NCBI RefSeq assembly: GCF_020055635.1
Contig: NZ_JAIPUT010000012.1
Coordinates: 1 to 64,000, forward strand
Direction of reading: 5' to 3'
Length of the DNA: 64,000 bases
Source of the DNA: Marivita sp.
GTDB taxonomy: Bacteria > Pseudomonadota > Alphaproteobacteria > Rhodobacterales > Rhodobacteraceae
Positions 27,417-47,460 of this stretch are shown piece after piece. A model generated the notes under the pieces. It saw only the letters and a program-made list of their open reading frames with translations. It had not been told where the DNA came from and ran no database searches. The position numbers were made by a program, and so were the translations under genes. Within the stretch, counting starts at the first letter, position 1; every line of letters begins with the position of its first letter.

Positions 27417-27483
27417 CGAGACAAAACCGGATTTTCAAGGGTCCATACATGACAAACAATACTCTAGGGCAGCGGTACGCTTG

Positions 27484-29715
27484 ATGACAGGAATGATCAG
27501 CGAACGGCAGGCTTGGAACAGTCCAACGCCTGGAGACGATGAAAAGTTCGAACTCGCCAAGCTGGGTCGCGCAGTCCGTCGGCAGCTTCCACTGGTGGCT
27601 TTCTTTGCCTTTATCGGCGCGGCGCTCGCGGCGGCAATGGTCATCGGGTCGGTGCAGCGGTTTATCGCCATCGAATCCATCCTGCTGGATGAAGAACGCA
27701 GCAACCTGCTCGACCAGGTGTCGGCCCTGCCCAATTCGGCGCGCAACGACAGCGCAATCCAGAGCGAGATCGAAATCATCAAGTCCCGCGTGCTGGCCGA
27801 AAAGGTCGTCGACCGTCTGAACCTTGACGAGAACACCGCCTTCCTCAATCCGCCGACCGACATGACAAGGGTCGTGACGGGACGGATCATGGGGCTGGCC
27901 GATCCCATTCTCAACCTGATTTCCCCGCAACAGCCAACAGCGCCCGCCGAACCCGTGCCGCAGGAGACCGCGCCGCCTGACGCTGCCGAAGCAGCGGAAC
28001 CGGAGCCGGAGGCTGATGTCGCCGAGCGCGAGGCGGCCGAGCGCGCGCGGGATCGTGCCATCGCGATCGTGCGATCGAACCTCTTTGCCGGCCGCGCCGG
28101 GCGCAGCCTCGTGATCCAGATCGGGTACGAAGGCTATGACGCCGAACGCGCCGCCGCCATCGTTCGGGCCTTCGGGAACGAATACACCCAGTTTCAGCTG
28201 GAATCGACGACAGAGGACGCCCGCAACGCGGGCAGATGGATTCAGCAGCGCCTGGACGTGTTGGAGCAGCAAAGCCTCGATGCCGCCCGGACCGTGCAGG
28301 AGTTTCGCGCCGACAACAACCTGATCGAGGTGCGCGGCGATCTTCTGACCGATCAGCAGCAATCGGAAATGACCAGCAAGCTGATCGATGCGACGGCGGA
28401 GACCGCCCAGGCGAAGGCGCGGCTGGACAATTTCGAAAGCCTTCTGTCGGAAACCGACGGCGACGTGATCACCGTGTCGGCACTGGAAACCGGCACCCCG
28501 TCCGGCCAGATCCTGAATTCCTTGCGGTCGGAATACCTTGAATTGACGCGCCGTCAGGAAAGCGTCGAAAGCCTTTACGGTCCGGACCATTCCCGAGCCG
28601 TCGACCTGGCCGAGCGCGCGGCGGCGCTCGAGGATGCGATCGCCGAGGAACTCAACAGCGCCATTGCGGCGATCCGCGCGGATTACGCCATCGCCCAGAG
28701 CCGCGAAGAAACCCTGCGCTCGCAAATCGAGGCGCTGAGCAGCACCGCCAATGACGAGACAGCCGACCTGGGACGCCTGCGGCAGCTCGAGGCGATCTCC
28801 CAGACCTACGCTGCGGTCTATCGCGACTACCTCGAACGCTACGAACTGACGACGCAGCAACAGGGCTTCCCGATTGCCTCGGTCCGTATCCTGTCGCGCG
28901 CCGAAGTCCCGAGATCCGCCTCGTCGCCGCGCAAGAAACTCATGCTGGCAACCGGCCTGACGCTTGGCGCGCTGCTTGGCATCGCCATCGGCGCGATGCG
29001 GGAACTGCGCACGCAACCGCTGCGCACCGGTGAAGAGGTCCGCGAGACGCTTGGCCTGTCCTGCGCCGGTCTGGCACCGAAATACACACGCTCTTCGTCG
29101 CGGCGGTCGAAAGAAGTTCTGGACCGGACCCTGTTCCGGGTGCGCCAGGCCGTTCTGAACAACACGTCCAAGACCAGCGGCCGCGTCGTCGGTCTTGCCC
29201 CGGCGGCGGAATTCAGGGACGCGCTGAGCATGGTGCCCCGCCTGTGCACGGTCTTGTCCATGCAGGGAGAAACCGTGCTGGTCGTAGATGTCTCTGGCAA
29301 ATCGAAACGCCTGCGAAATGACGTGCGAAGGGTCTCCGGTGCCGAGTTCACGACCGGCCAGGAGATTGACCGCATGATGGCGACCGACGTGCAGGGGTCT
29401 GACGCGGCGGACGGCTCAACTGCGGCGCGTTACAAGACGATGGACGACGTGGCATCCGAATATGATTTCGTGCTCCTGCTGTTGCCCCCCCTGACGCGGA
29501 CCATCGCCGTCGACCCCTTGTCGGGGATGTTCGACGTGTCGGTAATGACGATCCCGTGGGGCAAGGTTTCGTCCGAATTGATAAGCGGCGCGCTGCGCGA
29601 TCACCAGGTGTTCGCGAGCCGCCTGGCAACAACGGTTCTGGAGGGCGCAAACCTGCGCAAGGCACGGCGCTACATGCGCTCCGGAGACTATGAGGAACGC
29701 ATCATCCATGCTTGA
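27484..29715 (+). CDS. exoP: ExoP/Wzz-type polysaccharide co-polymerase with degenerate kinase domain
   Basis: The 743-residue protein has a Wzz domain with membrane segments near residues 38-60 and 485-505, a long periplasmic coiled-coil stretch, and a C-terminal cytoplasmic domain aligned with BY-kinases. Expected ATP motifs are gone. Where a P-loop (G-E-G-K-S-T) should follow V-V-G-L-A-P there is A-A-E-F-R-D-A-L. Walker A' reads V-V-D-V-S-G-K-S-K, and Walker B is L-L-L-L-P-P without Asp. It likely controls chain length without autophosphorylation. Two Tyr remain near the C-terminus (Y-M-R-S-G-D-Y). Start 27484 versus 27493 is uncertain. The end overlaps exoF by 8 nt. Confidence 0.85.
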   Translation: MTGMISERQAWNSPTPGDDEKFELAKLGRAVRRQLPLVAFFAFIGAALAAAMVIGSVQRFIAIESILLDEERSNLLDQVSALPNSARNDSAIQSEIEIIKSRVLAEKVVDRLNLDENTAFLNPPTDMTRVVTGRIMGLADPILNLISPQQPTAPAEPVPQETAPPDAAEAAEPEPEADVAEREAAERARDRAIAIVRSNLFAGRAGRSLVIQIGYEGYDAERAAAIVRAFGNEYTQFQLESTTEDARNAGRWIQQRLDVLEQQSLDAARTVQEFRADNNLIEVRGDLLTDQQQSEMTSKLIDATAETAQAKARLDNFESLLSETDGDVITVSALETGTPSGQILNSLRSEYLELTRRQESVESLYGPDHSRAVDLAERAAALEDAIAEELNSAIAAIRADYAIAQSREETLRSQIEALSSTANDETADLGRLRQLEAISQTYAAVYRDYLERYELTTQQQGFPIASVRILSRAEVPRSASSPRKKLMLATGLTLGALLGIAIGAMRELRTQPLRTGEEVRETLGLSCAGLAPKYTRSSSRRSKEVLDRTLFRVRQAVLNNTSKTSGRVVGLAPAAEFRDALSMVPRLCTVLSMQGETVLVVDVSGKSKRLRNDVRRVSGAEFTTGQEIDRMMATDVQGSDAADGSTAARYKTMDDVASEYDFVLLLLPPLTRTIAVDPLSGMFDVSVMTIPWGKVSSELISGALRDHQVFASRLATTVLEGANLRKARRYMRSGDYEERIIHA

Positions 29716-31054
29716 GGCTTTTCCGGTGCAGGGTGTCCGAGCCCCTGCCCTCGCAATGTTCAAACCCGTCCTGATGCTGTGCAGGGCCGTCCTGCTGGTT
29801 GCGCTGACGCAGGCCGCGACGCCCGCGGTTGCGCAGGACGATCATGTCATCCAGTCGCAGGACGTGCTTCGGATCCGGGTCGGCCAGTTCGACCCGGTCA
29901 GCCAGGCTTATGTCAACTGGGACAGCGTCAGCGGGGAATACCGCGTCTCGCCCACGGGTCAGGTCACGGTTCCGATGATTGGTGCGGTGACTGCGGCGGG
30001 CACGAACCCGGCCGAGCTGTCGCAGGATCTGACGGACATGCTGAACCGCCGCCTGGGACTGGACGAAAGCGTCGATGTGATCGTCGACCTGGCATCGTTC
30101 AGAAACATCTTCGTCATCGGCGCCGTCAATGCGCCGGGGGCCTATCCCTATACGCCGGGGCTGTCGGTTCTGCAGGCGCTCAGCCTGGCAGGGGGCACCG
30201 AACGCATGGCCGGCACGTTGTTGCAGTCGCAACGCAGCGCGATCAGCACCCAGGGCCAATACCGGTTGTTGCAGATGAACCTGCTTGCAAATCTCGCGAC
30301 CGAGGCACGGTTGACCGCAGAACTGAACGAAGCGGACATCGAGACCCCGCCCCGCCTCGAGGAAGCGCCGCTGGGCGAGGAACTGATGCAGCGGGAACGC
30401 GAAATCAAGGAGGCGCGGGACACCGCCTTCCGGTCCAGCCTGGATCAGATCGAAGGCCTCGAGACGCTTTTGCAGGAACAGATCGCCCGCCAGAACGAAC
30501 AGCTTGAGCTGCGCGAACGTCAGTTGACGCTTGTGCGCGAAGAATTGTCCACGGCCTCGGACCTTGTGGAGCGCGGGCTCTCCACCGCCAGCCGCGCAAG
30601 CTCGCTCGAACGGCTTGTGGCCGATCAGGAAGTGAGGATGCTGGAACTGGAAACCTCGACGCTTCAGGCGCAACAGCGGCTGAACGAAGCGCGGCGCGAT
30701 CGTCTGAACCTGACAAATGACCGTCGACGCAACCTTGTGTCACAACTCCGGGGCACCCGCGTTACGATCGAGGAAACGCGCCTGAAGCTCGACACCCAGG
30801 CGGCTCTCTTTGCAGAGGCGATGCGGATGGGTGATGGCTATGTGATGCCCGACAGCAAGGGCCAACCCACCATCCAGATCACCCGGCGCGGGCCCGAAGG
30901 TCCCGAGGTGTTCACCGCGACCCGCGCGACGACCGTGCGACCCGACGATGTGATCGAGGTCAGCCTGCCTGACGTGGACAGTGTTCGGGTCTTCCCACTC
31001 GACACGCCGAATGACGCAGCTGAACCGCCTGGTCCGCTGACCTTGAACCAGTAG
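29708..31054 (+). CDS. exoF: Polysaccharide export protein, ExoF-like
   Basis: The precursor has a signal sequence beginning at the internal MFKPVLMLC (29756) with cleavage after A-V-A-Q, then a Poly_export (SLBB/Wza-like) domain with D-V-L-R-I-R-V-G-Q-F-D-P and Y-R-V-S-P-T-G-Q-V-T-V-P. An SLBB-like loop (GAVNAPGAYPYTPGLSV) follows. A long coiled coil fills residues about 200-370, as in ExoF, which lacks the lipid anchor of Wza. It is thought to form part of the outer-membrane export path with ExoP. The overlap with exoP supports coupling. The ATG at 29708 or 29756 may be the true start. Confidence 0.85.
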   Translation: MLEAFPVQGVRAPALAMFKPVLMLCRAVLLVALTQAATPAVAQDDHVIQSQDVLRIRVGQFDPVSQAYVNWDSVSGEYRVSPTGQVTVPMIGAVTAAGTNPAELSQDLTDMLNRRLGLDESVDVIVDLASFRNIFVIGAVNAPGAYPYTPGLSVLQALSLAGGTERMAGTLLQSQRSAISTQGQYRLLQMNLLANLATEARLTAELNEADIETPPRLEEAPLGEELMQREREIKEARDTAFRSSLDQIEGLETLLQEQIARQNEQLELRERQLTLVREELSTASDLVERGLSTASRASSLERLVADQEVRMLELETSTLQAQQRLNEARRDRLNLTNDRRRNLVSQLRGTRVTIEETRLKLDTQAALFAEAMRMGDGYVMPDSKGQPTIQITRRGPEGPEVFTATRATTVRPDDVIEVSLPDVDSVRVFPLDTPNDAAEPPGPLTLNQ

Positions 31055-31392: not shown

Positions 31393-33198
31393 CTAGCCGG
31401 TCGCCTCGTGCAGCGCGCGGAAGGATCGGTTCTTCGCAACCAGCCCGTCATAGCCGTCCGCCGCGGCCAGTGTGCCGTGTTCCAGCAGAAAGATCTTGTC
31501 ACAGTTGCGCACCGTGCTCAGGCGATGGGCGATCATGATGATCGTCTTTTCTCCGCTCAGCCGGGCGATGGCGTTCATCACCGACCGTTCGGTCAGATTG
31601 TCCAGAGCGCTGGTCGCCTCGTCGAAAATCAGTACGTCCGGATTGGAATAAAGCGCACGCGCAATGCCGATCCGTTGGCGCTGGCCGCCCGACAGGCGTG
31701 TTCCTCTCTCGCCCACCATCGTGTCATAGCCCTGCGGCAGCTGTTCGGTCACGAACTCATGCAGCTCGGCGATGCGCGCCGCGGTCTTGACGGCCTCCAT
31801 GTCGATCTCGTCTCCGATCTTGCCGAAGGCGATATTGGCCGCGACGCTGTCATCGGTCAGAAAGATGTCCTGCGGGACATATCCGACCGATTTCTGCCAG
31901 GCGCGCACATTGTCGTCGTCGATCACCTGCCCGTCGACCTTCATCGCGCCGCCCTGCGGCGACAACAGGCCAAGGATGATGTCGACCATCGTCGTCTTGC
32001 CGGCCCCGGTCGAACCGACGATGCCGACGGTCGTGTTGGCGTCGATGGTCAAGGACAGATCGCGCAATGCGGGTCTTTCGGCGCTGGGAAACGCGAATTC
32101 GACATTTTCAAGCTCCAGCTTGCGGTTCAGGAGGATCGGCGCGAGATCGCCACCGCGGGTCGTGTCGAATCCCGTCGATTGCATCAGTTCGGCATGCATC
32201 TGGTCCAAAGCGGCTTCGCCGAAGCGAATGGTCGACAGGGCGCCGAACAATTGCTGGATCGTCGGAAACATCCGCGCCGCGGCAAAGGCATAGACGCCGA
32301 GCAGCGGGATGATGCCGGACACGTCCCCGTCGCGCGTCGCCAGCAGCCAGAGCACGAACAGGATCATGCCGCCGAAAGCGATGACCTCCAGCAGGTTGCG
32401 CGGCATTTCACTGATCACCGACAGCGAGGCCTGGTTGCGCGCCAGGCGGCTTGCAGGTTCCTTGAAACGCTCGATGTAATTGTGTTCAAGGTTCAGCAGC
32501 TTGACGTTCTTGATCCCGCCCATCGCCTCTTGCATGACCTGGAAACGGGCCCGGTTCGAGGCGACGCGCTCTTCGCCCATCCGGGTCAGGCGCGTGCGCA
32601 CGAAAAGATAGATCAGCCCGTAGCTGCCGCCGAACAGCACGGCAGCCGCGAGGGCGGCCCGAGGCTCGATCACGAAGAGGAAGATCACCAGGAAGACGAT
32701 GACGATCGCATTGGCGATCAGCCGCAGCGAGGCCGCGATGGGTCCGTTCACCACCTGCGCCACCTCGGACAGGATCGATTTGCCAAGGTCCGAGGTGTGC
32801 CGCGTCAGGAACCAGACATAGGGCTGGCTCAGGTAATGCTCCATCAGGCGCATCGCGAGGCTGAGCACCCGCATCCGCACGAAATAGGTCAGCAAATAGA
32901 AGGTCCCGGCGCGAAAAAGGGTCGTTCCCAGCACGAAGAGAAACATCGCGCCCGCCAGCAGGATCAGGAACCCCTGAACGGTTTCGGCGCCGGAAAACTG
33001 GTACAGCGAGTTGAGAAACGAGTTCGTCTCGACCGCCTCCGGGTTCGACACGACCGCGAGGAACGGAAGGATCGACGCGACACCCAGCACGTCGACGATC
33101 CCCATCACGAAGGTGAGGGCGATCAGCCAGTAGAATTGCTTGCGCTCGCGCGGATCAAGCAATTCGAAGATTTTTCTGAAAGTCTTGCGCAAGGACAT
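31393..33198 (-). CDS. ABC transporter, fused permease and ATPase (PglK/MsbA-like)
   Basis: The 601-residue half-transporter has six N-terminal membrane helices (about residues 20-300) and an ATPase domain with Walker A G-S-T-G-A-G-K-T-T, signature L-S-G-G-Q-R-Q-R and Walker B V-L-I-F-D-E-A-T-S-A-L-D. The N-terminus, L-D-P-R-E-R-K-Q-F-Y, resembles the PglK group that flips lipid-linked oligosaccharides. Since no Wzx-type flippase was found here, it is a candidate flippase for the polysaccharide repeat unit. Start 33198 (MSLRKTFRKIF) is chosen on family resemblance; ATGs at 33240 and 33279 are alternatives. Confidence 0.88.
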   Translation of the reverse strand: MSLRKTFRKIFELLDPRERKQFYWLIALTFVMGIVDVLGVASILPFLAVVSNPEAVETNSFLNSLYQFSGAETVQGFLILLAGAMFLFVLGTTLFRAGTFYLLTYFVRMRVLSLAMRLMEHYLSQPYVWFLTRHTSDLGKSILSEVAQVVNGPIAASLRLIANAIVIVFLVIFLFVIEPRAALAAAVLFGGSYGLIYLFVRTRLTRMGEERVASNRARFQVMQEAMGGIKNVKLLNLEHNYIERFKEPASRLARNQASLSVISEMPRNLLEVIAFGGMILFVLWLLATRDGDVSGIIPLLGVYAFAAARMFPTIQQLFGALSTIRFGEAALDQMHAELMQSTGFDTTRGGDLAPILLNRKLELENVEFAFPSAERPALRDLSLTIDANTTVGIVGSTGAGKTTMVDIILGLLSPQGGAMKVDGQVIDDDNVRAWQKSVGYVPQDIFLTDDSVAANIAFGKIGDEIDMEAVKTAARIAELHEFVTEQLPQGYDTMVGERGTRLSGGQRQRIGIARALYSNPDVLIFDEATSALDNLTERSVMNAIARLSGEKTIIMIAHRLSTVRNCDKIFLLEHGTLAAADGYDGLVAKNRSFRALHEATG

Positions 33199-33329
33199 TC
33201 GCGATTTTCTGTTGTGAGTTCCTGCGACCCAACCCGACATGGCGGCGATGGTTCCGAGCCGTTGGAAAAACATGAACAAATGCAGGGTTCGCGCGTTGCC
33301 GGTCAGACGTGACCTTCAGGACAGACCCC

Positions 33330-36309: not shown

Positions 36310-37428
36310 TCAGGTTCCGACGGCCGCCTTGTGCTCCTGGTCGAAATGCCGTGTCAGTTCCGAGGCCCCGTACCAAAGCGACTGCGACACCATCCGCCCG
36401 ACATGTCGTTCACAGGCATCAACCAGGATATCCCGCCGACGTGGCAGAGCCGACTGCGCTGGAGATTCCAGAAGCGTCAGAAGCAGATCGGCGTCACTGA
36501 CACCCGGCATGACCTTTGCCAGCCGGGCTTCCATGTCGCTGTAATTATGCGGAAACAGCGCGTGCAGGATGCGCAGCGCGATCAGAGCCGTTCCGGTCAG
36601 GCGCTGTTCCGCCGCGACCTCCAGGAAGGCCGCCACGCGCGCGGTCTGACCATGCCCGAGAAGCTGCGACAGGTCCCAGGCATGGGTGATCATCTTCGAC
36701 TTCGACACCAGCCCCTTGATCAGGTTCATCGCCGGCACCAGCGGCAACAAGCGTCGCGGAACGACCTGCCAGTGCTGGCCGCGATGGCTGATTACCGCGT
36801 CAGGATCGAAAAACGCGCCCAGGTTCGCCGGTCCGGGTGTGCCCGGCTGCTGAAGCCCGTTGTGCAGGTCGATTGCCCGGTAGTCGCCGGTGTCCGGGTA
36901 CAGGTGCCGTTCCCCGAGAAAGGTCTCCCACCAGAGCGACCGCTCGAACTTGGGGTTGAACCCGATTGACCCAAGCAGGTCGACCACCGCCCGAAAGCTT
37001 TTCCTGGGAACCAGAAGGTCAATGTCGCCGCTCGGGCGCAGGAAGAAATCGCGGTAAATCTGATGCTGTTGGTGGATGCCCTTGAAGAACACGTAGCGAT
37101 GCCCGCTGTCCTCCAGCGCCCGTGCGACGAGGGTCGATTGATCCACCAGAACCGCGTTGATTTTCATGATCTTGGACTGCCAGCGCAGGGTCTTCCCTTC
37201 CAGCCAGAGCCGATCCTGCCCCTCGAGAACCGGTGCCAGTCCGGAGGCGAAATGGGTCAACATCCAGTTGCTCCGCGCCAGCACTCCGGCGCCGATCACA
37301 TCCTCGCGTCGGACGTCAAGAAATCTCGGCGGTTTTACGCCGGCGGCCAATCGAAGGCCGACCAGGAAAAGCTGTTCGCGTGGCTCCAAGCCATGAATTT
37401 CCGAGTTGCTGAGCTCCACTTGCATCAT
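36310..37428 (-). CDS. Nucleotidyltransferase family protein (PF14907-like) of the lasso peptide cluster
   Basis: The 372-residue protein has V-F-F-K-G at residues 113-117 and R-P-S-G-D-I-D-L-L-V at 131-140, the G-S/D-x-D metal site of polymerase-beta-type nucleotidyltransferases in the PF14907 family. Such genes recur in lasso peptide clusters that also encode an HPr-like kinase; in pseudomycoidin, as I recall, the homologue PsmN further modifies the phosphorylated C-terminal Ser with hexose. It is divergently transcribed from the precursor gene across 194 bp. TTGAGG precedes a double ATG (37428 and 37425); either may be used. Confidence 0.82.
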   Translation of the reverse strand: MMQVELSNSEIHGLEPREQLFLVGLRLAAGVKPPRFLDVRREDVIGAGVLARSNWMLTHFASGLAPVLEGQDRLWLEGKTLRWQSKIMKINAVLVDQSTLVARALEDSGHRYVFFKGIHQQHQIYRDFFLRPSGDIDLLVPRKSFRAVVDLLGSIGFNPKFERSLWWETFLGERHLYPDTGDYRAIDLHNGLQQPGTPGPANLGAFFDPDAVISHRGQHWQVVPRRLLPLVPAMNLIKGLVSKSKMITHAWDLSQLLGHGQTARVAAFLEVAAEQRLTGTALIALRILHALFPHNYSDMEARLAKVMPGVSDADLLLTLLESPAQSALPRRRDILVDACERHVGRMVSQSLWYGASELTRHFDQEHKAAVGT

Positions 37429-37622: not shown

Positions 37623-37769
37623 ATGAAGTTTGAAACCACAGCATATGAGAAGCCGACGCTGACCGCACTCGGGACGGTCGAGGACATGACGCATGGCGCG
37701 TCCGCAGGTTCGGAACTCGACAACGATTTCCCAACTGGAACGGATTTTGGCGATCTGACCTTTAGCTGA
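37623..37769 (+). CDS. Lasso peptide precursor (A)
   Basis: This 48-residue gene is preceded by AAAGGTG. Residues 8-25 carry the leader signature Y-x-x-P-x-L-x-x-x-G-x5-T-x-G (YEKPTLTALG then MTHG). With Thr at the penultimate leader position, cleavage falls after residue 24 (T-H), leaving a 24-residue core beginning G-A-S-A-G-S-E-L-D. Gly1 supplies the amine; Glu7 or Asp9 can supply the side-chain carboxylate, giving a 7- or 9-membered ring. The tail has Phe12, Phe18 and Phe23 as possible plugs and ends in Ser24, a site for the kinase downstream. The core is acidic. Product and target are unknown. Confidence 0.88.
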   Translation: MKFETTAYEKPTLTALGTVEDMTHGASAGSELDNDFPTGTDFGDLTFS

Positions 37770-37849: not shown

Positions 37850-38146
37850 ATGATCTCTCAGCCAAACACCACATTCACCTCCTGTTCGCATGTCGTCAGC
37901 AGCAATATCGGCGGGTCTCTCGCCCTGCTCGATACGAAGTCTGACAGGTACTTTTCCCTCAACGGCACCGGCGCCACGGTCTGGGAGCTGCTCGAAACGC
38001 CGCGAACGCTTCCCGATCTGTGCAGCGAGATCGGCAAGAAGTATCAGCTGTCGCCCGAAGAGTGCCGCGACGACATCGCCGAAATCCTGACCGCCCTTCA
38101 TCACGAGGGACTGATCGAAGGAGAACGGCATGCGGCGCATAATTGA
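37850..38146 (+). CDS. Lasso peptide biosynthesis B1 protein (PqqD-like leader-binding RRE)
   Basis: The 98-residue protein is a stand-alone PqqD-type RiPP recognition element: a short beta part (LALLDTKSDRYFSLNGTG) followed by W-E-L-L and helices (EECRDDIAEILTALHHEGLI). B1 binds the leader's Y-x-x-P-x-L motif and presents the precursor to the B2 protease. The ATG at 37850 is used because the residues upstream in the frame cover the hairpin. It overlaps B2 by 17 nt, so the two halves of the leader peptidase are translated in coupled fashion. Confidence 0.88.
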   Translation: MISQPNTTFTSCSHVVSSNIGGSLALLDTKSDRYFSLNGTGATVWELLETPRTLPDLCSEIGKKYQLSPEECRDDIAEILTALHHEGLIEGERHAAHN

Positions 38147-38570
38147 TCGGGCGATCACCCTGTTCCGGTGGTTTCCCATCCTGGTCTCCGCGCTGTTCTG
38201 GGTGGTCGTCGCCCGGCTCTGGCTGACCTTCGGAACGCATCGCAGCCTGCGGCCAAAGGTCTTCGAACGCAGCCTGAAAGAGGCACAGGACATCGCGGCG
38301 TGGCGTGTCGGTCGCGTGGTCTGGGCCGTGCACCACGCCGCCCGCCTTGTGCCGCGCGCATCCTGCCTGACCCAGGGGCTGGCGGCACAGATCATGCTGG
38401 CCCGACGCGGGTTGCCCTCGACGCTCCATATCGGTGTCAAAAAAGACACCGAGACACCGTTTGAAGCCCATGCCTGGCTGACCTTTCGGGGCAGGATCAT
38501 CCTTGGACATCGCGAGAATCTTCTGGCCCGCTATTCTCAGCTGGCCGAATACGGACCGACCGCGGCATGA
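38130..38570 (+). CDS. Lasso peptide biosynthesis B2 protein (transglutaminase-like leader protease)
   Basis: The 146-residue protein has the papain/transglutaminase-like core seen in lasso B2 enzymes: Cys79 in R-A-S-C-L-T-Q-G-L-A, an R-R-G-L-P-S-T-L-H-I-G-V strand, and His114 in F-E-A-H-A-W-L. It removes the leader while B1 holds it, exposing Gly1 of the core. A hydrophobic N-terminal helix (about residues 13-32) could associate with membrane. The stop overlaps the cyclase ATG (ATGA). Split B1/B2 is typical of this class of cluster. Confidence 0.9.
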   Translation: MRRIIDRAITLFRWFPILVSALFWVVVARLWLTFGTHRSLRPKVFERSLKEAQDIAAWRVGRVVWAVHHAARLVPRASCLTQGLAAQIMLARRGLPSTLHIGVKKDTETPFEAHAWLTFRGRIILGHRENLLARYSQLAEYGPTAA

Positions 38571-40456
38571 GCGGAATTGCAGGCCATATCTGTGCGCGGG
38601 GCCAACTGCTGGACGCGGTGACCTCGACCGATCTCTGCACCGGATTGCGCGCGCGTGGACCCGGACGCCTGACCGAATGGTCGCACCCGAGGGCGGCGCT
38701 TTATCACCTGCACCTGGGGCCAGGGGATGTCGGGCACAGCTTCGACGCGGCGGGCGATGCCGTCGTGCTGGGCGACATCCGCATCGACAACAGGGCCACG
38801 CTCTTGCGCGATCTGGAGATCCCCGACGCGCAGACGCTGACCGACGCCCGGTTGATCGCCGCGGCCTGGAAGGTCTGGGGGCCTGACCTGTGCGCGCGCC
38901 TGGTTGGTGATTTTGCCATTGCCATCTTCGAGCCGGCCCGGAACCGCATGTTTCTGGCGCGCGACGCGCTGGGCGTGCGGCCCCTGTTCTGGCGACAGGT
39001 CGATCAGGGTATCGCCTTTGCGTCCGACGCGCGGATCCTGTGCCGAGACGCGCCTCCGGCGATGTCTGACGACGAGTTGATCACCTATCTTTCCGGCGCG
39101 CCGCGCAATCCCGAAACGACGCAGTACCCAGGTGTGCGCCGGGTCCAGCCGGGGCATTGGCTGGAGTGGCAGGCGGGCGCGGTCGAAACATCGCGCTACT
39201 GGGATTTCAGCCTGCAAGAGCGCACCCCTCCCGACCCGAAAGCCGCGTTTCGCGACCAGTTCCGGACGGCTGTCGCCGATCGCCTGTCAGGTCCGGGGAC
39301 CGTGGCCGCGATGCTGAGCGGCGGGCTTGATTCCTCCTCGATCTGCGTGGTTGCGAACCGCGAAACCGACACGCCCCTGCGCACCTATTCGCTCACCTAT
39401 CCGGGCCAGTCAGACGCGGATGAAACACCCTATATCGACGCGGTTCTGGCGACCGGAGAGTACGATCCTGTCCGGATCCCCATGACAGAACACCCGCCTT
39501 TCGACGCCTTCGATGCCCTTCTCAAGCGCCATGGCGGCCCGTTCGAGGCGCCCGGGCTGACAAAATCCGCGGTCCTGTTCCGACAGGTGGCCAGGGACGG
39601 ATACACCGTGCTGCTCAGCGGGCATGGGGGCGACGAAGTGGTCTGGACCGGCGTGACCCGCGTGCTTGAACTGGCGCGCCAGAAACGTTTCCTGCGGGCG
39701 TTGCCGCTGGTGCCGGTCTACGCCCGCGCCTCGGGCCGGTCTTCGGCTGCGGTGATGGTGGCGCTCCTGCGCACCCACGGCCCTCAAAACCGCGCCCTGC
39801 AACGGGTCTGCAGGTCCCTGGCGCAGCGATTGCGCCCCCGCGATCAAGAAACCGGAGCTCTGCTGCGGGATCGGTGCCTGAACACCGACACGACCCGGCA
39901 AACCCAGACGCCGCAACGCTCGGAACCCGATCGTTCTGATCCGAATGCGGCGCATCACCTGGACAGGGCGCATCATGTCGAGACGCTTTCGTCGCCCCTT
40001 GTCCAGCGCGCGTTCGAGATCCTCGACGCCGAGGCGGCGGCGGCGGGCATCGAATTGCGGTTTCCCTTCTACGACCGGCGCCTGGTCGAGTTCTGCGTCG
40101 CCCTTCCGGCATCGGAAAAATTCGCCCACGGGCAGACCCGCAGCATCCTGCGTCGCGGCTTGAAGGGCATCCTGCCCGCCAAGATCGCAAGACGACGGGA
40201 CAAGACCGACTTTTCCGCAGAAATCGGGCGCCGCCTGGTGCGCCACCACGACGAAATTCTCAGGGATGTCGCCGATGACGCGACAGGGCGGCTGCACGGC
40301 ATTCTCGACATGCCCGCGCTGCGCGACGCCATAGACACGCTGCGCCGCGACCCCGACAGGCTTGGAGGCCGGGACATCGGGTTCCTGTGGCGTGTCGCCA
40401 GCCTGCACCTCTGGATGCGCATGATGAAGACCCCCAAGACCGGAGACCGACCATGA
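38567..40456 (+). CDS. Lasso peptide cyclase (C), asparagine synthetase-like
   Basis: The 629-residue enzyme has an N-terminal glutaminase-like fold starting M-S-G-I-A-G. The Cys2 nucleophile of true Asn synthetases is Ser here, so it probably cannot hydrolyse glutamine, as expected for lasso cyclases. The C-terminal domain has the PP-loop L-S-G-G-L-D-S-S-S near residue 249, L-S-G-H-G-G-D-E and a late R-F-P-F-Y-D-R-R-like block (LRFPFYDRRLVEF). It adenylates the acidic ring residue with ATP and closes the macrolactam around the tail. It overlaps both neighbours by 4 nt. Identity as cyclase rests on the B1/B2/precursor context. Confidence 0.9.
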   Translation: MSGIAGHICARGQLLDAVTSTDLCTGLRARGPGRLTEWSHPRAALYHLHLGPGDVGHSFDAAGDAVVLGDIRIDNRATLLRDLEIPDAQTLTDARLIAAAWKVWGPDLCARLVGDFAIAIFEPARNRMFLARDALGVRPLFWRQVDQGIAFASDARILCRDAPPAMSDDELITYLSGAPRNPETTQYPGVRRVQPGHWLEWQAGAVETSRYWDFSLQERTPPDPKAAFRDQFRTAVADRLSGPGTVAAMLSGGLDSSSICVVANRETDTPLRTYSLTYPGQSDADETPYIDAVLATGEYDPVRIPMTEHPPFDAFDALLKRHGGPFEAPGLTKSAVLFRQVARDGYTVLLSGHGGDEVVWTGVTRVLELARQKRFLRALPLVPVYARASGRSSAAVMVALLRTHGPQNRALQRVCRSLAQRLRPRDQETGALLRDRCLNTDTTRQTQTPQRSEPDRSDPNAAHHLDRAHHVETLSSPLVQRAFEILDAEAAAAGIELRFPFYDRRLVEFCVALPASEKFAHGQTRSILRRGLKGILPAKIARRRDKTDFSAEIGRRLVRHHDEILRDVADDATGRLHGILDMPALRDAIDTLRRDPDRLGGRDIGFLWRVASLHLWMRMMKTPKTGDRP

Positions 40457-41433
40457 ATGACGTCCATACCACTGGCCTGCCCTTCAAATCATCCAGAGCC
40501 GCGCCCCAACCCCATCACTATACGGCGTTCGGCCTGACTTTCAGCTCTGACATACGTTTCGACGAATTGACGCGGGTCGATCCCTGCGTTGCGGACATCG
40601 AGGTCCGGCGCGGCGCCATCGACCTGTCAGAGGCCGCGCCCGGGCGTTCCATCCGGTTCGACTTTGACCGCGACGAATACCTGTTCTGCTGGAAGGACGT
40701 GGCAAATTTCCGCATCCGCGGCACCGACAGCGTCCTGATCGACCCGTCCCCGGAATGCGACGAGACCATGTTGGCGTTTCCCTTTCTCGGGCCGGTCATC
40801 GCCTTGCTCCTGCATCTGCGCGGCAAGCTGGTTCTGCACGCAAGCTGTGTCGCGGTTGCGGGTCTGGGCGTGTCGTTTCTGGGTGCCAAGATGGCCGGAA
40901 AATCGACCACCGCGGGCGCGTTCGTGCGCGCCGGGTACCCGCTGCTCAGCGATGACGTGGTGGCCCTCGATCTCGACGGCAATGGCGGCGCTTCGGTGGC
41001 CCCGGCCTTCGGCCAGATCAAGTTGGCCCCGGATTCGTCGGACGCGCTTGCGCTCGGGGCGCAGATCATGACCGACGGAGACCGCAAGAAACTGCCGAAA
41101 CAGGCGCATCGGATCGCGGGGGCGCTGGCCTCGGCCGAGGTGCCCATGTCGCGCATCTGCATTCTCGAGCGGGGCGACACCGCCGCGATGCACCTGATGA
41201 GTCCCGAAGAGGCGCTGCCGGAACTGCTGTGCCATTCCTATGTCAACCGGTTCGGCCGCTCCGCCCTGCCCAGCCGGGAAAAGACCCTGCACATGACGCA
41301 CTGCGCCCGGGTGCTGTCCGAGATACCGGTCTACCGGCTGACCGTGCCAACGGGGCTGGACCGGCTGTCCGAAGCGGTCGGTCTTGTGCGGTCCGAGATG
41401 ACGGAACCGACGAGGGCCCATGCATCCGGCTGA
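40453..41433 (+). CDS. HPr kinase-like lasso peptide kinase
   Basis: The 326-residue protein has HPr kinase/phosphorylase-type motifs: L-H-A-S at 128-131, Walker A G-A-K-M-A-G-K-S-T at 144-152, and L-L-S-D-D-V-V-A-L with Asp167-Asp168. It lacks a bacterial PTS context. Homologues in lasso clusters (PadeK of paeninodin and ThcoK, as known from the literature) phosphorylate the side chain of a C-terminal Ser of the precursor; the precursor here ends in Ser. The ATG at 40453 overlaps the cyclase stop, and the gene overlaps the exporter by 14 nt. Confidence 0.85.
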   Translation: MNDVHTTGLPFKSSRAAPQPHHYTAFGLTFSSDIRFDELTRVDPCVADIEVRRGAIDLSEAAPGRSIRFDFDRDEYLFCWKDVANFRIRGTDSVLIDPSPECDETMLAFPFLGPVIALLLHLRGKLVLHASCVAVAGLGVSFLGAKMAGKSTTAGAFVRAGYPLLSDDVVALDLDGNGGASVAPAFGQIKLAPDSSDALALGAQIMTDGDRKKLPKQAHRIAGALASAEVPMSRICILERGDTAAMHLMSPEEALPELLCHSYVNRFGRSALPSREKTLHMTHCARVLSEIPVYRLTVPTGLDRLSEAVGLVRSEMTEPTRAHASG

Positions 41434-43249
41434 TCCCTATTCCGAGGAAACCTCCAAGGGCGAGCTGTCGTCCTTCCTGCGCTACCTGTCCCGCAAGTCG
41501 GGACGGCGCGGGCTCTGGGCGCTGGCGCTGCAACTTGCCGGCAGCCTGACCGAAGGCGTGTCGGTCCTGTTGCTCGTGCCGATCCTGACGCTGGTCAACC
41601 GCACCGAGAGCAACCCGACCGTCACTCTGCCCGACGGCGACGGAATCGGTGTGATCACCCGGGGCGCCGAGGTGGGGCTGCCGCTTGCCCTGACGGCGCT
41701 GGTGGTGGTGGTCATCCTGATGGCGCTCTTCAACCGCCTGCGGATGATCTTCACGGCAGACCTGGTCTACGAACTTCTCAACGACCTCCGGCTCGACCTC
41801 GTGCGCGCCATCACGCAGGCCCGCTGGACCGCCTTCGTGCGCTCCCGCGAGGCCGATCTGACACATATCCTCACCGGCGATATCGACCGGGTGCAAAGCG
41901 CCACCGCCTCCACCCTGTCGATCTTTCAGAACCTGTTCAGCATCGCGGTCTACCTGGCCGCGTCGCTGTTCATCTCGGTGCAGATGACCCTGCTCGCGGC
42001 GGTGATCGGCGCGGTCATGCTGGTGGTGCTGACGCCGCTGCGCCGGCATGCCCGGCGATTGGGCCGGTCGATCACGTCCAACAGGCGGTCCCAGTACCGG
42101 ATGGTGTCCGACATGGTCACGGGCATGAAGATGACCAAGCGGCTGAACGCCGAGGCCGGCAGCCTGCACCGGCTGGAAGACACGCTGGGCGAGATGCGGC
42201 GCAACACGGTGACCTTCGTGTCCGCCAGTTCCTGGGGGTCTGCCGGGTTCAATATCTTCAGCGTGGCGGGTCTTGCGATCTTTGTCTGGGTCGCGCTGAC
42301 CCGGACGCAGATGCCGCTGCCCGAACTGGTGATCCTGCTGTTTGTCTTCATGCGCATCGCGCCGCGCTTTCTGACCACCCAGTCGCTCTGGCAACAGGTC
42401 CTGCAGAACCTGCCCGCATTCCACGCCATCCGGTCGATGACGCGCTATTTCGAGGACCGCAGGGAGGTGCCGTCGACCGACGTGCAGGCACCGCCGCTGA
42501 ACGACCGGATCGTCCTCCGCAACCTGTTTTTCGGCTATGGCGACGACACGCCGAACGTGCTGTCCGATGTTTCGATGGTGTTGCGCAAAGGAGAGGTCAC
42601 CGCGGTCATCGGGCCGTCGGGGTCGGGCAAGAGCACCCTGGCCGACCTGCTGATGGGATTGCTCGAGCCGGATCGTGGCGAGATCCTCGTCGATGGCACC
42701 GAGATCGACGCCAGCCTCAAGCGCGCGTGGCGACGCCAGGTCGCCTTCGTGCCGCAGGATGTGCTGTTGCTGCACGACACGATTGCGAACAACCTGAGGC
42801 TTGCGCGCCCCGACGCCACCGATAGCGATATCGAAGAGGCGCTGCGCAGCGCCCATGCGTGGACCTTTGTAAGCGCCCTGCCCCACGGGATTCACACCAA
42901 TGTCGGGGATCGCGGCCTGTGGCTTTCGGGGGGCGAACGGCAGCGCATCGCACTCGCCCAGGCCCTGTTGCGCAAGCCTCGGCTTCTGATCCTCGACGAG
43001 GCGACCAGCGCGCTGGACTGGGAAACGCAGGCGTCGATCGCCAAGGCGATTGCCGGGCTCAAGGGCGACATGACCATTCTCACGATTGCGCACCGTCCGT
43101 CGATGATCTCGTTCGCCGACCGGGTTGTTGCGCTGTCGGATGGCAAAGTTGCGGAAACCGGCGGATATGCCGAACTTTCGGCCGATGGAAACAGCCGTCT
43201 GTCACGCATGCTGGCAACCGAGGAGAACCGGGAACTGACAGCGTCGTGA
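41420..43249 (+). CDS. ABC transporter (lasso peptide exporter D)
   Basis: The 609-residue half-transporter has an N-terminal six-helix membrane domain (about residues 25-330) and an ATPase with Walker A G-P-S-G-S-G-K-S-T, signature L-S-G-G-E-R-Q-R and Walker B L-L-I-L-D-E-A-T-S-A-L-D. As the last gene of the overlapping B1-B2-C-kinase-ABC operon, it most likely exports the finished peptide and gives self-immunity, as McjD does for microcin J25. The N-terminal start overlaps the kinase end by 14 nt. Confidence 0.9.
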   Translation: MHPADPYSEETSKGELSSFLRYLSRKSGRRGLWALALQLAGSLTEGVSVLLLVPILTLVNRTESNPTVTLPDGDGIGVITRGAEVGLPLALTALVVVVILMALFNRLRMIFTADLVYELLNDLRLDLVRAITQARWTAFVRSREADLTHILTGDIDRVQSATASTLSIFQNLFSIAVYLAASLFISVQMTLLAAVIGAVMLVVLTPLRRHARRLGRSITSNRRSQYRMVSDMVTGMKMTKRLNAEAGSLHRLEDTLGEMRRNTVTFVSASSWGSAGFNIFSVAGLAIFVWVALTRTQMPLPELVILLFVFMRIAPRFLTTQSLWQQVLQNLPAFHAIRSMTRYFEDRREVPSTDVQAPPLNDRIVLRNLFFGYGDDTPNVLSDVSMVLRKGEVTAVIGPSGSGKSTLADLLMGLLEPDRGEILVDGTEIDASLKRAWRRQVAFVPQDVLLLHDTIANNLRLARPDATDSDIEEALRSAHAWTFVSALPHGIHTNVGDRGLWLSGGERQRIALAQALLRKPRLLILDEATSALDWETQASIAKAIAGLKGDMTILTIAHRPSMISFADRVVALSDGKVAETGGYAELSADGNSRLSRMLATEENRELTAS

Positions 43250-43274: not shown

Positions 43275-44528
43275 TCAGTCGCTGCGGCTCAGAAGATGCA
43301 CCTGCCGTCCGCCATCCTCGAGGGTCGTGACAAGAATATGCTGCCCGTCCGGGCTGGGCACCGGATGCAGATCACAGCGGAACGGCCCCTTGGCGGGCGT
43401 GTGATTTCCGAACTGCGCAATCCTCTCGGCCTGCCCGGTCTTCAGGTCCAGAATGCAGACGTCGATCTCTTCCCGGTAGGGCGTGTCGAAGACGAACCTG
43501 TCAGGCAGGCCGGGGATCTGGCGGATATGCACATTCGCGTCCAGCACCGACGGCGCGAACACCGCCTCTTGCGTGCCGGGACCGGCATCGCGGAACAGGC
43601 GCACCTTGCCCTGTTGCCAGAAATACAGCCGATCCCGGTCATACCAGATCACATGCGATGTCGCGGGGGCCAGAAGCCGCAGATCGCGCCCGTCGACGCC
43701 GCAGGTCAGACTGTAGCCCATCGCCTCGTTCCACGGACCGCCCGGAACCCGAAATCGCAGCTTGACGGTAAAGCGGGTCCCGTCCGGCGACAGTTTCGCA
43801 TGGTTGAACCAATAGATGTACCGACGGCGCAGGTGCCCCAGACGCGACCGCAGACCAAGCTGGCGCATCAGGAACCGGACCGCGCGTTTCAGCGACAGGA
43901 TCAGCGCCGCATCGCCCGTTTCAAGATCCACGCGCCACACCCCGTCATCATCCGGCTTGCGGTCAAGCCTGCTGTCCGTGTCATCCATGTCACCGGAATA
44001 GCCATAGCCCGGACGCAGCGTGTTCAGCCGCAAGAGGTTGAGCGACAGCATGTGCCTGCCATCGGGGTCCACCGCGTAGACAGCGCGCGGCAGCGTGCGG
44101 GTCCGGCCGGTTGCAAGGTCATGCACACGCGCCACGATCCGCCCGTCCTCGCGGTCATTCCAGATAACCTGCGATCCCCCGCTTTCATCCCCGCCGACCC
44201 ATTGCGCCATCGGTCCCTGCTGCACGCTCCAGGCGCGGCTTTCACCGATGGGGGTCCAGCGCCGTGCCGGATCCATGACGTCGATCACGCCGATCTCGAT
44301 CGTGTCGTCGCCGGACGGATGACGCCCCGCAACCGAGGTCCGGTAAAGCACGACGCGGCGGCTTTCGGCGTCGAAGACGGGAATGTCGTAATAGCTGTGA
44401 CTGTGAAACCGGCCCGCTGCGGTGCCATTGGTCAGGCGCGTCTGCACCCATGTCATCGGCTTGGGATCGCCATCGGGGTTGAGCGACGCAGCCGCGTCTT
44501 CGGCGACGGAGGGGGCATGTTGGTGCAT
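43275..44528 (-). CDS. TolB-like beta-propeller protein
   Basis: The 417-residue protein consists of WD40/TolB-type repeats: segments such as L-S-P-D-G-T-R-F-T-V and P-S-P-D-G-Q-H-I-L-V-T-T, plus Y-A-V-D-P-D-G-R-H-M-L-S. There is no signal peptide. Some oligogalacturonate-lyase-like and dipeptidyl-peptidase propellers look similar, but no catalytic motif is clear. The start at 44528 is supported by GGAG at about 9 nt and lies 2 nt after the stop of the upstream sulfotransferase, so the pair is coupled. It may bind a saccharide or peptide in polysaccharide modification. Function unknown. Confidence 0.7.
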   Translation of the reverse strand: MHQHAPSVAEDAAASLNPDGDPKPMTWVQTRLTNGTAAGRFHSHSYYDIPVFDAESRRVVLYRTSVAGRHPSGDDTIEIGVIDVMDPARRWTPIGESRAWSVQQGPMAQWVGGDESGGSQVIWNDREDGRIVARVHDLATGRTRTLPRAVYAVDPDGRHMLSLNLLRLNTLRPGYGYSGDMDDTDSRLDRKPDDDGVWRVDLETGDAALILSLKRAVRFLMRQLGLRSRLGHLRRRYIYWFNHAKLSPDGTRFTVKLRFRVPGGPWNEAMGYSLTCGVDGRDLRLLAPATSHVIWYDRDRLYFWQQGKVRLFRDAGPGTQEAVFAPSVLDANVHIRQIPGLPDRFVFDTPYREEIDVCILDLKTGQAERIAQFGNHTPAKGPFRCDLHPVPSPDGQHILVTTLEDGGRQVHLLSRSD

Positions 44529-44530
44529 TT

Positions 44531-45553
44531 CTAGGGTTCTCCGGCCTCGGCCAGGGACAGGAAGTCGAATTCCTCGATCATGTCGCGCACCCTGGCGATC
44601 TGGCCGGGCGACCAGGCCACGCTGTGCCGGCTGCGGTTTTCCCCGTGCCGCACGATCGACGCGGCATCCTCGACGAACCCGCCCCGGTCCTCGAGATCGA
44701 GAAAGCCAAGGATGCGGCGCAGCCCCGCCGCGGGATCGCGCGCAAAAGCCTCGTAGCCGACCCCAAGCCAGTGGTCCGCCGGAACCCGCGCCTGAAGATC
44801 CCGGACACCGGCACAAAGCGACCGGAAATCGTCGATCATCGCGTCATCGGCGCTGTCGGCGATGGACTTGCCGGCCTCGGCCTTCAACGCCGCCTTGAAC
44901 GCGCTTGAATCCGGACTTGAGATGCGCAACCGGTCATAGGCCCCGCCCCGCCGCAGCGACATGGTGGCGATGTTGTCGAACGGGTTGCGCACCACCAGCA
45001 ACCACTTGCACGGCAGCGCAATCCGCTCGTGCAGCCTGTCGAGCAGCCCGGCATCCCTCTGCATGCGCCGAACCGCCCAGTCGCCCTTCTTGTCCCCGAT
45101 GACCAGCGGCGCGTCGGAGCGTCCGTTATGCTGGTTCGGCACGACATAGGCGAACCCGTTCCAGTAACGCCCGTGATCCATGAAAGCGGCCGATTGCGAC
45201 CCGATCAGCGCGAAGATCTCGTCTTGCGACCACCCCGCGTCGAGCAGACCCAGAACATCGAGCTCGTGTGACACCACCGCATCGGGATGCGCATCCACCA
45301 GCGACCCGATCAGCGAATGACCCGAGCGCGGAAAGCCCGCGAATTGAAGAAAGCTGTGCGTATGGGTCGTCGATTGCCCGCCGGTCCGTTGCCACCACTT
45401 GGCGCGAGCCTTCAGTTCAAGCAGTGATTTCGGTCGATGATGGCGCGAGGCATCGTGATCGAAAACGGGCACCGTGTGTTCGCCCGTCCTGCGCCGCAGC
45501 ACCGTGTCCACTTTGTGTTTGATCCGGTGAACCGGCGAATCCTGGCTTGGCAC
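44531..45553 (-). CDS. Sulfotransferase
   Basis: The 340-residue protein has the PAPS-binding G-F-P-R-S-G-H-S-L (5'-phosphosulfate loop) near residue 74 and V-R-N-P-F-D-N-I-A-T-M (3'-phosphate) near residue 188. It is expected to transfer sulfate from PAPS to a sugar or protein acceptor. The 95-nt-wide gap on its 5' side leads to a second, divergent sulfotransferase. It starts with GTG at 45553, AAGG at 10 nt. It could sulfate the exopolysaccharide or the lasso peptide product; the window does not decide. Confidence 0.82.
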   Translation of the reverse strand: MPSQDSPVHRIKHKVDTVLRRRTGEHTVPVFDHDASRHHRPKSLLELKARAKWWQRTGGQSTTHTHSFLQFAGFPRSGHSLIGSLVDAHPDAVVSHELDVLGLLDAGWSQDEIFALIGSQSAAFMDHGRYWNGFAYVVPNQHNGRSDAPLVIGDKKGDWAVRRMQRDAGLLDRLHERIALPCKWLLVVRNPFDNIATMSLRRGGAYDRLRISSPDSSAFKAALKAEAGKSIADSADDAMIDDFRSLCAGVRDLQARVPADHWLGVGYEAFARDPAAGLRRILGFLDLEDRGGFVEDAASIVRHGENRSRHSVAWSPGQIARVRDMIEEFDFLSLAEAGEP

Positions 45554-45683
45554 GTTGGATGACCTTCAAAATCTGGCTACGCAAACAAACGTCATGCAAC
45601 CCGAATGGTTCCTTGCTCGTTTACCAAGCCATGACGGCCCGCCTTCCCGATAGGCGCGGGGCCGTTCATCCAAGCGAGGGGCC

Positions 45684-46520
45684 ATGACAAAAACCGACAT
45701 CATCATTCTGGGTGCCCAGAAATGTGCCACCACCTCCCTGTTCGACGTGATGACGCGTGCGCCCCGCATCGTCGGCGCATCGCCGAAGGAGCCGCATTAT
45801 TTCAGCACCTGCGAAGACTGGCGCGACGGTCTGGACGACTATCACCGGATATATGCCGCGCAAGCCAATGCATTGCGGCTCGAAGCGTCCACAACCTACA
45901 CGTTTTTCCCGCATCGCAAGCGTGGGCTCTGGCACGATCTGCATGCCTATAACCCGGCCCTTCGATTGATCTACGTCGTGCGAAAACCCGTCGATCGGAT
46001 CATGTCCCATTACAAGCATGTCGTCCGGCGGGGCTATTTCTCGGGCACGCTCGAGAAATTTGCGCTGAACAAACCGCAGGCCCTGTCGATTTCGCGCTAC
46101 TACACGCAGATTCGTCCCTTCATCGAACGTTTTGGCCGCGAACAGGTCCTGCTGCTGCAATACGAGGACGTGATCTCGGGCCGCGCCAACCGCAAGGTTG
46201 CAGAGTTTGTCGGTCTCGACCCGGACGCCCTCGGATCAGAACCGGCGCTGTCGAATGAATCTGGCGCGGTTCGGCATCGCAGGTTTTCCGAAGACCGACC
46301 CGCCTGGAAACTGCTGAGCGCCGCCAGCCCGAAAACCGCCGAGCGGATCTCGCGTCGGTTGACCCGGTCCCCCCCGGCATCGCCCGATCTGAGCCCGGAG
46401 CTGCAGGGCGCGATCAACCACATGCTCGAACCGGACATCCGGGCTTTCGAAAAGCTGAGCGGCTTCGACCTTGGCCACTGGCGCTGTGTGACCATGCCAC
46501 AGGCTGCGCGCACGGGATAG
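45684..46520 (+). CDS. Sulfotransferase domain-containing protein
   Basis: The 278-residue protein has the P-loop-like I-L-G-A-Q-K-C-A-T-T-S-L at residues 8-19 and V-V-R-K-P-V-D-R-I-M-S-H-Y near 98, typical of heparan/NodH-type sulfotransferases that use PAPS. It is divergent from the other sulfotransferase and about 140 bp before the ExoY-like gene. A role in sulfation of the exopolysaccharide is likely by context but not proved. GAGGGGCC stands directly before the ATG. Confidence 0.85.
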   Translation: MTKTDIIILGAQKCATTSLFDVMTRAPRIVGASPKEPHYFSTCEDWRDGLDDYHRIYAAQANALRLEASTTYTFFPHRKRGLWHDLHAYNPALRLIYVVRKPVDRIMSHYKHVVRRGYFSGTLEKFALNKPQALSISRYYTQIRPFIERFGREQVLLLQYEDVISGRANRKVAEFVGLDPDALGSEPALSNESGAVRHRRFSEDRPAWKLLSAASPKTAERISRRLTRSPPASPDLSPELQGAINHMLEPDIRAFEKLSGFDLGHWRCVTMPQAARTG

Positions 46521-46662
46521 CGGCGGAATTGCGTCGAAAAATGGACTTTTGCGAGAAAACTCATGCTTTTCCGGGAACTGATCCCCCATCGCACGGTTAG
46601 CTGCGAAACGGAGACAGGCATCACGCCGTCGGAATGTTTTCAGCACGACCGGGAGTATGGGC

Positions 46663-47460
46663 ATGAAGACCTTGAATCGGACCGAGAACGGTCCTTCGCA
46701 GTTCGCCAACATCGATCGCCTGCCCTTTGGCAGCGGGGTCTTTGATGCCGAGATCGCTGGAAGGGCCGCCGGGGTCGATTTTCCTGCGTCGACCCGTGAT
46801 GGCGCGACCTGGCCACGGCATGCTGTCGACGATCACCGCATCCCGGACAATGACACGGTCCTTAAGCATGTTTTCGATCGGGTGTTCGCCGCCTTGGCCC
46901 TTGTCCTGCTGTCTCCGCTCTTTCTGATGGTGGTGCTGCTGATCCGCTTCACCGATCCGGGGCCGATCTTTTTCGCCCATGAACGCATCGGAAAGCGGGG
47001 GCAACGGTTCAAGTGCCTGAAGTTCCGGACGATGGCAGAAGACGGCGACGCCATCCTGGCCCAGCATCTGCGGAACAATCCCGAGGCCGCGGCTGAATGG
47101 AACAGCACGCGAAAGCTTCAGGATGATCCCCGCGTCACTCGCCTCGGCGATGCGCTGCGCCGCTCCAGCATCGACGAATTGCCGCAACTCTGGAACATCC
47201 TGGTCGGAGACATGAGCGTGGTCGGCCCGCGCCCCATTGTGGACGCCGAAATCCCGCATTACGGCAACGCGATCTTCGACTACCTGTCGGTACGTCCGGG
47301 CCTTACCGGCTTGTGGCAGGTCAGCGGACGCAGCGACGTCGGCTACGGCCAGCGTGTCCGGCTGGACACGGAATATGTGCGCACGCGGACGATCCTGAAG
47401 GACGCGGCGATCGTCCTGAAGACGATCAAGGTCGTCGCCTTCCGCGAAGGCAGCTGCTAG
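46663..47460 (+). CDS. exoY: Undecaprenyl-phosphate galactose phosphotransferase, ExoY-like
   Basis: The 265-residue protein is a bacterial sugar transferase that puts the first sugar-phosphate (galactose in ExoY) on undecaprenyl phosphate. A variable N-terminus of about 65 residues precedes one membrane helix (about 73-94). The conserved core then has [25 protein letters not shown] and [13 protein letters not shown]. The start at 46663 has GGAG at 7 nt; ATG 46657 would be too close. It completes the exo-type locus although separated from it by the lasso region. Confidence 0.9.

Follow-up and report, generated by a model that had tools for sequence, protein, structure and literature searches.

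The 64,000-nucleotide stretch of DNA analyzed here (the window) very probably encodes a lasso peptide of class II, made by a cluster of the proteobacterial A-B1-B2-C-K-D type, with a nine-residue ring predicted between Gly1 and Asp9 and a C-terminal Ser that would be phosphorylated. The peptide itself belongs to an already known lasso clade. Our main addition is the linkage of this clade to exopolysaccharide genes in Alphaproteobacteria, contrasted with the other lasso clusters of the order; for Bacilli, a comparable linkage is already in print (PMC13381572). Such a clade-specific linkage of kinase-bearing lasso clusters would allow a concrete function to be tested. Moreover, the case illustrates that comparison with relatives goes a long way toward deciding between two candidate ring acids in one core.

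The precursor and its biosynthetic genes

The precursor gene A (37623-37769, plus strand) translates into the leader MKFETTAYEKPTLTALGTVEDMTH followed by the core GASAGSELDNDFPTGTDFGDLTFS and a stop codon (48 codons, stop at 37767-37769). The sequence-only reading had taken this frame for a lasso precursor cut behind Thr-His, an interpretation supported by the translation, by the Pfam and NCBIfam matches of the cluster, and by comparison with relatives. The cut gives a leader of 24 residues (37623-37694), with YEKPTL at -17 to -12 and Gly at -8, and a core at 37695-37766. Relative to this cut, the YxxPxL motif has its Tyr at -17, its Pro at -14, and its Leu at -12, and a Thr stands at -2; PMC10368454 gives the same spacing. 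The NCBIfam lasso leader domain NF033521 matches the precursor with 21.1 bits (cut-off 19); a Pfam search of the precursor gave no match. The lasso leader pattern occurs a single time in the whole window, and a narrower pattern (leader, core beginning with Gly or Ala, acid near 7-9, close to a stop) was found in none of 100 shuffles of the window, these being mononucleotide shuffles in which codon and dinucleotide structure is lost. Tyr-17, Pro-14, Gly-8, and Thr-2 are each present in all 51 leaders compared, all four being residues that the search score itself favored.

The window precursor thus shows the class II lasso features: the YxxPxL leader with Thr at -2, a small residue at core position 1 with an acid at 7, 8, or 9, adjoining B1, B2, and C genes, and a core free of Cys, which therefore has no disulfide. 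The acids noted earlier at core positions 7 and 9 are read in the translation as Glu7 and Asp9, and the tail is indeed acidic (Asp at 11, 17, and 20) and ends in Ser. The three Phe that had been proposed as plugs are present at positions 12, 18, and 23; among the 41 cores of 24 residues, Phe is found 40 times at position 12, 14 times at position 18, and 36 times at position 23. As candidate plugs they are partly supported, the plug residue itself not being readable from sequence.

On the same strand, A is followed in order by B1 (37850-38146), a PqqD-like leader-binding protein (RRE; PqqD, 62.9 bits); B2 (38130-38570), a transglutaminase-like leader peptidase (lasso_biosyn_B2, 79.5 bits versus 33; NF033537 also above cut-off); C (38567-40456), an asparagine-synthetase-like lasso cyclase (Asn_synthase, 196.8 bits); K (40453-41433), an HprK-like precursor kinase; and D (41420-43249), an ABC exporter identified by Pfam and NCBIfam. 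Of the lasso-specific NCBIfam models, the one for B2 is matched above its cut-off, and those for B1 and C only at scores under their cut-offs. Divergent from A, on the minus strand, lies N (36310-37428), an NTP_transf_5 nucleotidyltransferase (72.7 bits, cut-off 31.2) with a relative in 71 of 80 related loci.

By analogy with characterized relatives, from which every chemical step, the order of the steps, and the threading are taken, B1 would bind the leader and K would phosphorylate the C-terminal Ser of the precursor. B2 would then cut behind Thr-His, and C would activate the side chain of Asp9 and join it to the amine of Gly1, closing a ring of nine residues through which the tail is threaded. 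N may afterwards add a sugar to the phosphate, and D would export the product.

The ring-closing acid

We searched the cyclase against its own genome and 394 family genomes (three with E <=1e-80, own genome included) and in a scan of one genome per species, keeping the best 80 of 209 relatives. The kinase was searched against 390 genomes of the order (10 with a match), and the precursor against a plasmid collection, which gave three further records. Precursors of the relatives were located by the leader pattern near biosynthetic genes. The final set comprises 51 distinct cores, after one antisense frame of N that passed the precursor pattern (L029) was dropped and two precursors (L018, L161) were added by hand because they have no ATG near the leader. 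L017 and L027 are one contig, and their shared core was therefore counted once. The set leaves out L019 (no cyclase, GTG start), L107 (an orphan precursor with Asp9 and Ala7), loci whose precursors did not score high enough, and the precursor candidates of the order's more distant lasso clusters. The 51 cores are not independent, 25 of them being Mesorhizobium-type by our own sorting. In the precursor score, an acid earned the same credit at any of positions 7, 8, and 9, so that 9 was not favored over 7.

Asp9 is present in 47 of the 51 cores and Asp8 in three, all of which come from the cyanobacterial loci L103 and L106; the remaining core (L104) has no acid at 7-9. All 41 cores of 24 residues carry Asp9, and 22 of 26 cores do so when the Mesorhizobium-type loci are left out. 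Position 7, by comparison, is variable (Ala in 25 of the 41 24-residue cores, Ser in five, Arg, Val, and Thr in two each, Glu in one), and an acid is found there in the window alone (1 of 51). The window's own genome holds a second cluster (L016:6900-11130; G000:C58), with two different precursors, a kinase, and a Poly_export gene near; their cores, GQATGLNTDAAFSTTTPLADVTFS and GGSTGLRLDASFPAGTPFGDLTLS, each carry Asp9 and lack an acid at 7. Since Asp9 is conserved among relatives, including both precursors of this second cluster, we conclude that the window peptide most likely has a Gly1-Asp9 ring of nine residues (Asp9 codon GAC, 37719-37721), and Glu7 (codon GAA, 37713-37715) seems to have arisen by chance substitution at a variable position. 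The conservation is a property of the family, and it counts against this reading that the window is the only member with an acid at 7. The choice between a 7- and a 9-membered ring proposed from the sequence is chemically possible; the comparison of relatives does not support the smaller ring.

On conservation we rejected Glu7 as the ring residue, and also Asp11, since an acid at 11 occurs in the window alone among the 41 24-residue cores. Two loci deserve separate mention. The candidate precursor core near position 6953 of L104, AGAPNQIFFEQYGYS, has its Glu at 10 and would thus need a ten-residue ring or another cut. L107:7001-7147, on a Nostoc plasmid, is an orphan precursor with core GLKDGSALDKDFPTGTPRGKLTFS, 50% identical to the window precursor; no lasso enzyme was found in the surrounding 14.1 kb.

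In xanthomonins, the acid at position 7 is the ring residue. Xanthomonins I-III, compared here by description, are lasso peptides like that of the window, whose family conserves Asp9 instead; a conserved ring acid at 7 is not seen across the 51 cores. It is therefore very improbable that Glu7, present as it is in the core, closes a seven-residue ring here and leaves Asp9 in the loop, even though seven-residue lasso rings exist (xanthomonins, in a title cited in PMC13352647). None of the other 50 cores has an acid at 7, the window keeps Asp9, and the nearest cyclases found outside the genome (L017/L027, 41-42% by pairwise identity rather than by a tree) pair with Asp9 precursors. Scarcely more credible, or less, is a cyclase that makes a mix of two ring isomers from one precursor: both acids lie within the 7-9 range, but a single lasso core is not known to give rings of two sizes. 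In PMC13352647, lasso precursors are said to tolerate substitutions except at the acidic residue, and a shift of the ring by one residue lowers production, which speaks for closure at Asp9 and against a mix; one caulosegnin enzyme set yields 8- and 9-residue rings from different precursors, which speaks for it and also counts against an Asp9-only reading.

We hold it to be no more probable than these two that no ring forms at all, with the cluster silent or its product a linear phosphopeptide. Bacillota do have linear polyphosphorylated peptides that come with a comparable kinase and an NTP transferase (PMC13381572), and one relative, L019:7554-9653 (G600:C31), has a leader-bearing precursor, B1, B2, and K, with a core, FYWSWTKIAPWCDPSYS, that lacks an acid at 7-9 and ends in Ser. 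There is no cyclase gene between its B2 and K, and none was found in the G600 genome with the window cyclase as query, an empty result that is weak as proof of absence; the product of L019 is possibly a linear phosphopeptide. In the window, on the other hand, the cyclase frame runs for 629 aa without a stop, and the ring acid is kept. That this close relative, G600, in which no cyclase was found, also has no acid at 7-9 in its core is counted in favor of the Gly1-Asp9 ring.

The kinase and the C-terminal serine

In an alignment of 111 kinases, H129, K150, S151, D167, and D168 of the window kinase are conserved in 109 each. Its match to Pfam Hpr_kinase_C is below cut-off (26.2 versus 33.3 bits). 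Searching with its AlphaFold2 model (mean pLDDT 89.5), Foldseek ranked PEP carboxykinases best (E 3.6e-9), followed by HprK/P (E 5.5e-7), and at the sequence level the kinase profile also finds HprK/P (E 5.2e-8). The PEP carboxykinase and HprK/P families have a common fold. A point against the kinase, besides the low Pfam score, is Met147, at a position occupied by Gly in 105 of the 111; by our reading of the spacing, this residue would correspond to G166 of the related kinase BsfK, whose motif glycines G166 and G168 are replaceable with almost no loss (PMC10368454).

Ser is the last residue in 50 of the 51 cores, the exception being the second precursor of L109, which ends in Pro; in the window its codon is 37764-37766. 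The paeninodin/Syan-type combination of an HprK-like kinase gene encoding the His, the Lys, and the Asp-Asp pair with a core ending in Ser is thus found here, and kinases of the paeninodin type act on the C-terminal Ser (PMC9266682). We therefore suggest that Ser24 is likely the target of K. BsfK phosphorylates Ser3 (PMC10368454), and the window core also has a Ser at that position; we consider this site less likely, as only 17 of the 51 cores share it. The C-terminal Ser thus takes its likely meaning from features that the sequence-only reading of the precursor had not included, namely the kinase, the nucleotidyltransferase, and the location among exopolysaccharide genes.

Exopolysaccharide linkage and known counterparts

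The lasso cluster sits within a run of polysaccharide genes extending from 15706 to 47460. To its left (15706-36247) lie glycosyltransferases, a sugar epimerase, Wzy_C (24951-26282), Wzz/GNVR (27394-29715), Poly_export (29690-31054), an ABC gene (31393-33279), and three GT2 genes; to its right (44531-47460) are two sulfotransferases and a bacterial sugar transferase (46657-47460). A LuxR-type regulator with an autoinducer-binding domain (14428-15189) stands just before the exopolysaccharide genes. The two sulfotransferase genes (44531-46520) lie beside the lasso cluster; sulfotransferases likewise adjoin the clusters of Sulfitobacter and Thalassobaculum, and PMC8498205 mentions one for lasso clusters of Firmicutes. 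Between the exporter and the sulfotransferases, a long frame on the minus strand (43278-44816) has only a weak NCBIfam match to a TolB-propeller and no match in a Pfam search.

As a control, we surveyed 380 genomes of the order for lasso B2 genes, finding 32 sites spread over 26 genomes (three sites scoring below the family cut-off), and listed the Poly_export genes of the same 26 genomes. Clusters were called window-type by high scores to the kinase and cyclase profiles, which were trained on several of these very clusters; G600, which lacks a cyclase, and G091, which lies at a contig end, were assigned from the genes that they do have. A Poly_export gene lies within 20 kb of eight of nine window-type clusters versus three of 23 other lasso clusters (Fisher p 1.3e-4), a contrast whose grouping was made after the first cases had been seen and whose related clusters are not independent. 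Adding G048, which came from the cyclase search of family genomes, is absent from the 32 B2 rows, and has no Poly_export on its contig, changes this to 8/10 versus 3/23 (p 4.2e-4), and removing six short-contig or sub-cut-off rows to 8/10 versus 3/17 (p 0.0034). The share of the genome that close to a Poly_export gene is about 1 to 5% in each genome. Many of the other lasso clusters also carry a kinase relative, so the contrast is between clades and not between presence and absence of the kinase.

A second comparison, by tblastn with the polysaccharide proteins of the window and of two plasmid loci, points the same way. Relatives of Poly_export, sugar transferase, Wzz, or Wzy were found in 10 of 11 window-type stretches, two of which are themselves sources of some queries, versus 3 of 22 other lasso stretches; the exception among the 11, L022, has only glycosyltransferases nearby. 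Among the best 80 of 209 loci, 66 have relatives of both Poly_export and the sugar transferase within flanks of <=5 kb, nearly all of these being Mesorhizobium. No such polysaccharide relatives were detected by tblastn in the stretches of L096, L103, L105, and L106, or in the short-contig loci L078 and L098. In two annotated plasmids, one from Paracoccus sp. MC1862 and the other from Sulfitobacter indolifex, the cluster again lies among polysaccharide genes.

From the gene neighborhood, an exopolysaccharide locus, one may guess that the peptide works in the matrix or at the cell surface. A bolder idea, drawn solely from that neighborhood and to which we assign a low probability, is that the lasso peptides of this alphaproteobacterial clade are working parts of exopolysaccharide systems, in which a phosphoserine sugared by N would link or dock the lasso to the exported polysaccharide. 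If true, the polysaccharide coat would carry knotted peptides. In the literature covered, which excludes most subscription journals, we recognized nothing relevant to a lasso-polysaccharide link beyond PMC13381572, and a search combining lasso peptide, Rhodobacter, and kinase gave nothing judged relevant. According to PMC13381572, capsular polysaccharide loci of Bacilli are a frequent location for both paeninodins and linear polyphosphorylated peptides; a biofilm role for these peptides is there called tempting but untested, and the roles of paeninodins unknown.

Several described systems share parts of this arrangement. The linear polyphosphorylated peptides of Bacillota resemble the window in their RRE, HprK-like kinase, NTP transferase, exporter, and polysaccharide loci; as presented in PMC13381572, they have a SipW-like peptidase and no cyclase, whereas C and B2 are both present in the window. 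Paeninodin (PadeK) and pseudomycoidin (PsmK, PsmN), compared by description, combine a kinase with a C-terminal Ser as the window does (PMC9266682, PMC8498205), and the capsule linkage reported for paeninodin-type clusters of Bacilli (PMC13381572) recalls its exopolysaccharide locus. In pseudomycoidin, the nucleotidyltransferase is needed for placing hexoses on the phosphate (PMC9266682, PMC8498205); the window cluster also has such a gene, N, set beside PsmN by description alone. Unlike the window, both follow the Firmicute order C-A-K-B1-B2-D (PMC5067487). Closest in gene order is the SyanK/SyanA type of Sphingobium yanoikuyae, likewise known here by description. The order A-B1-B2-C-K-D, named for a putative proteobacterial kinase-bearing cluster, is that of the window (PMC5067487), as are the split B protein, the HprK-like kinase, and the C-terminal Ser (PMC5067487, PMC9266682); the window differs in having N divergent beside A and its cluster set in an exopolysaccharide locus.
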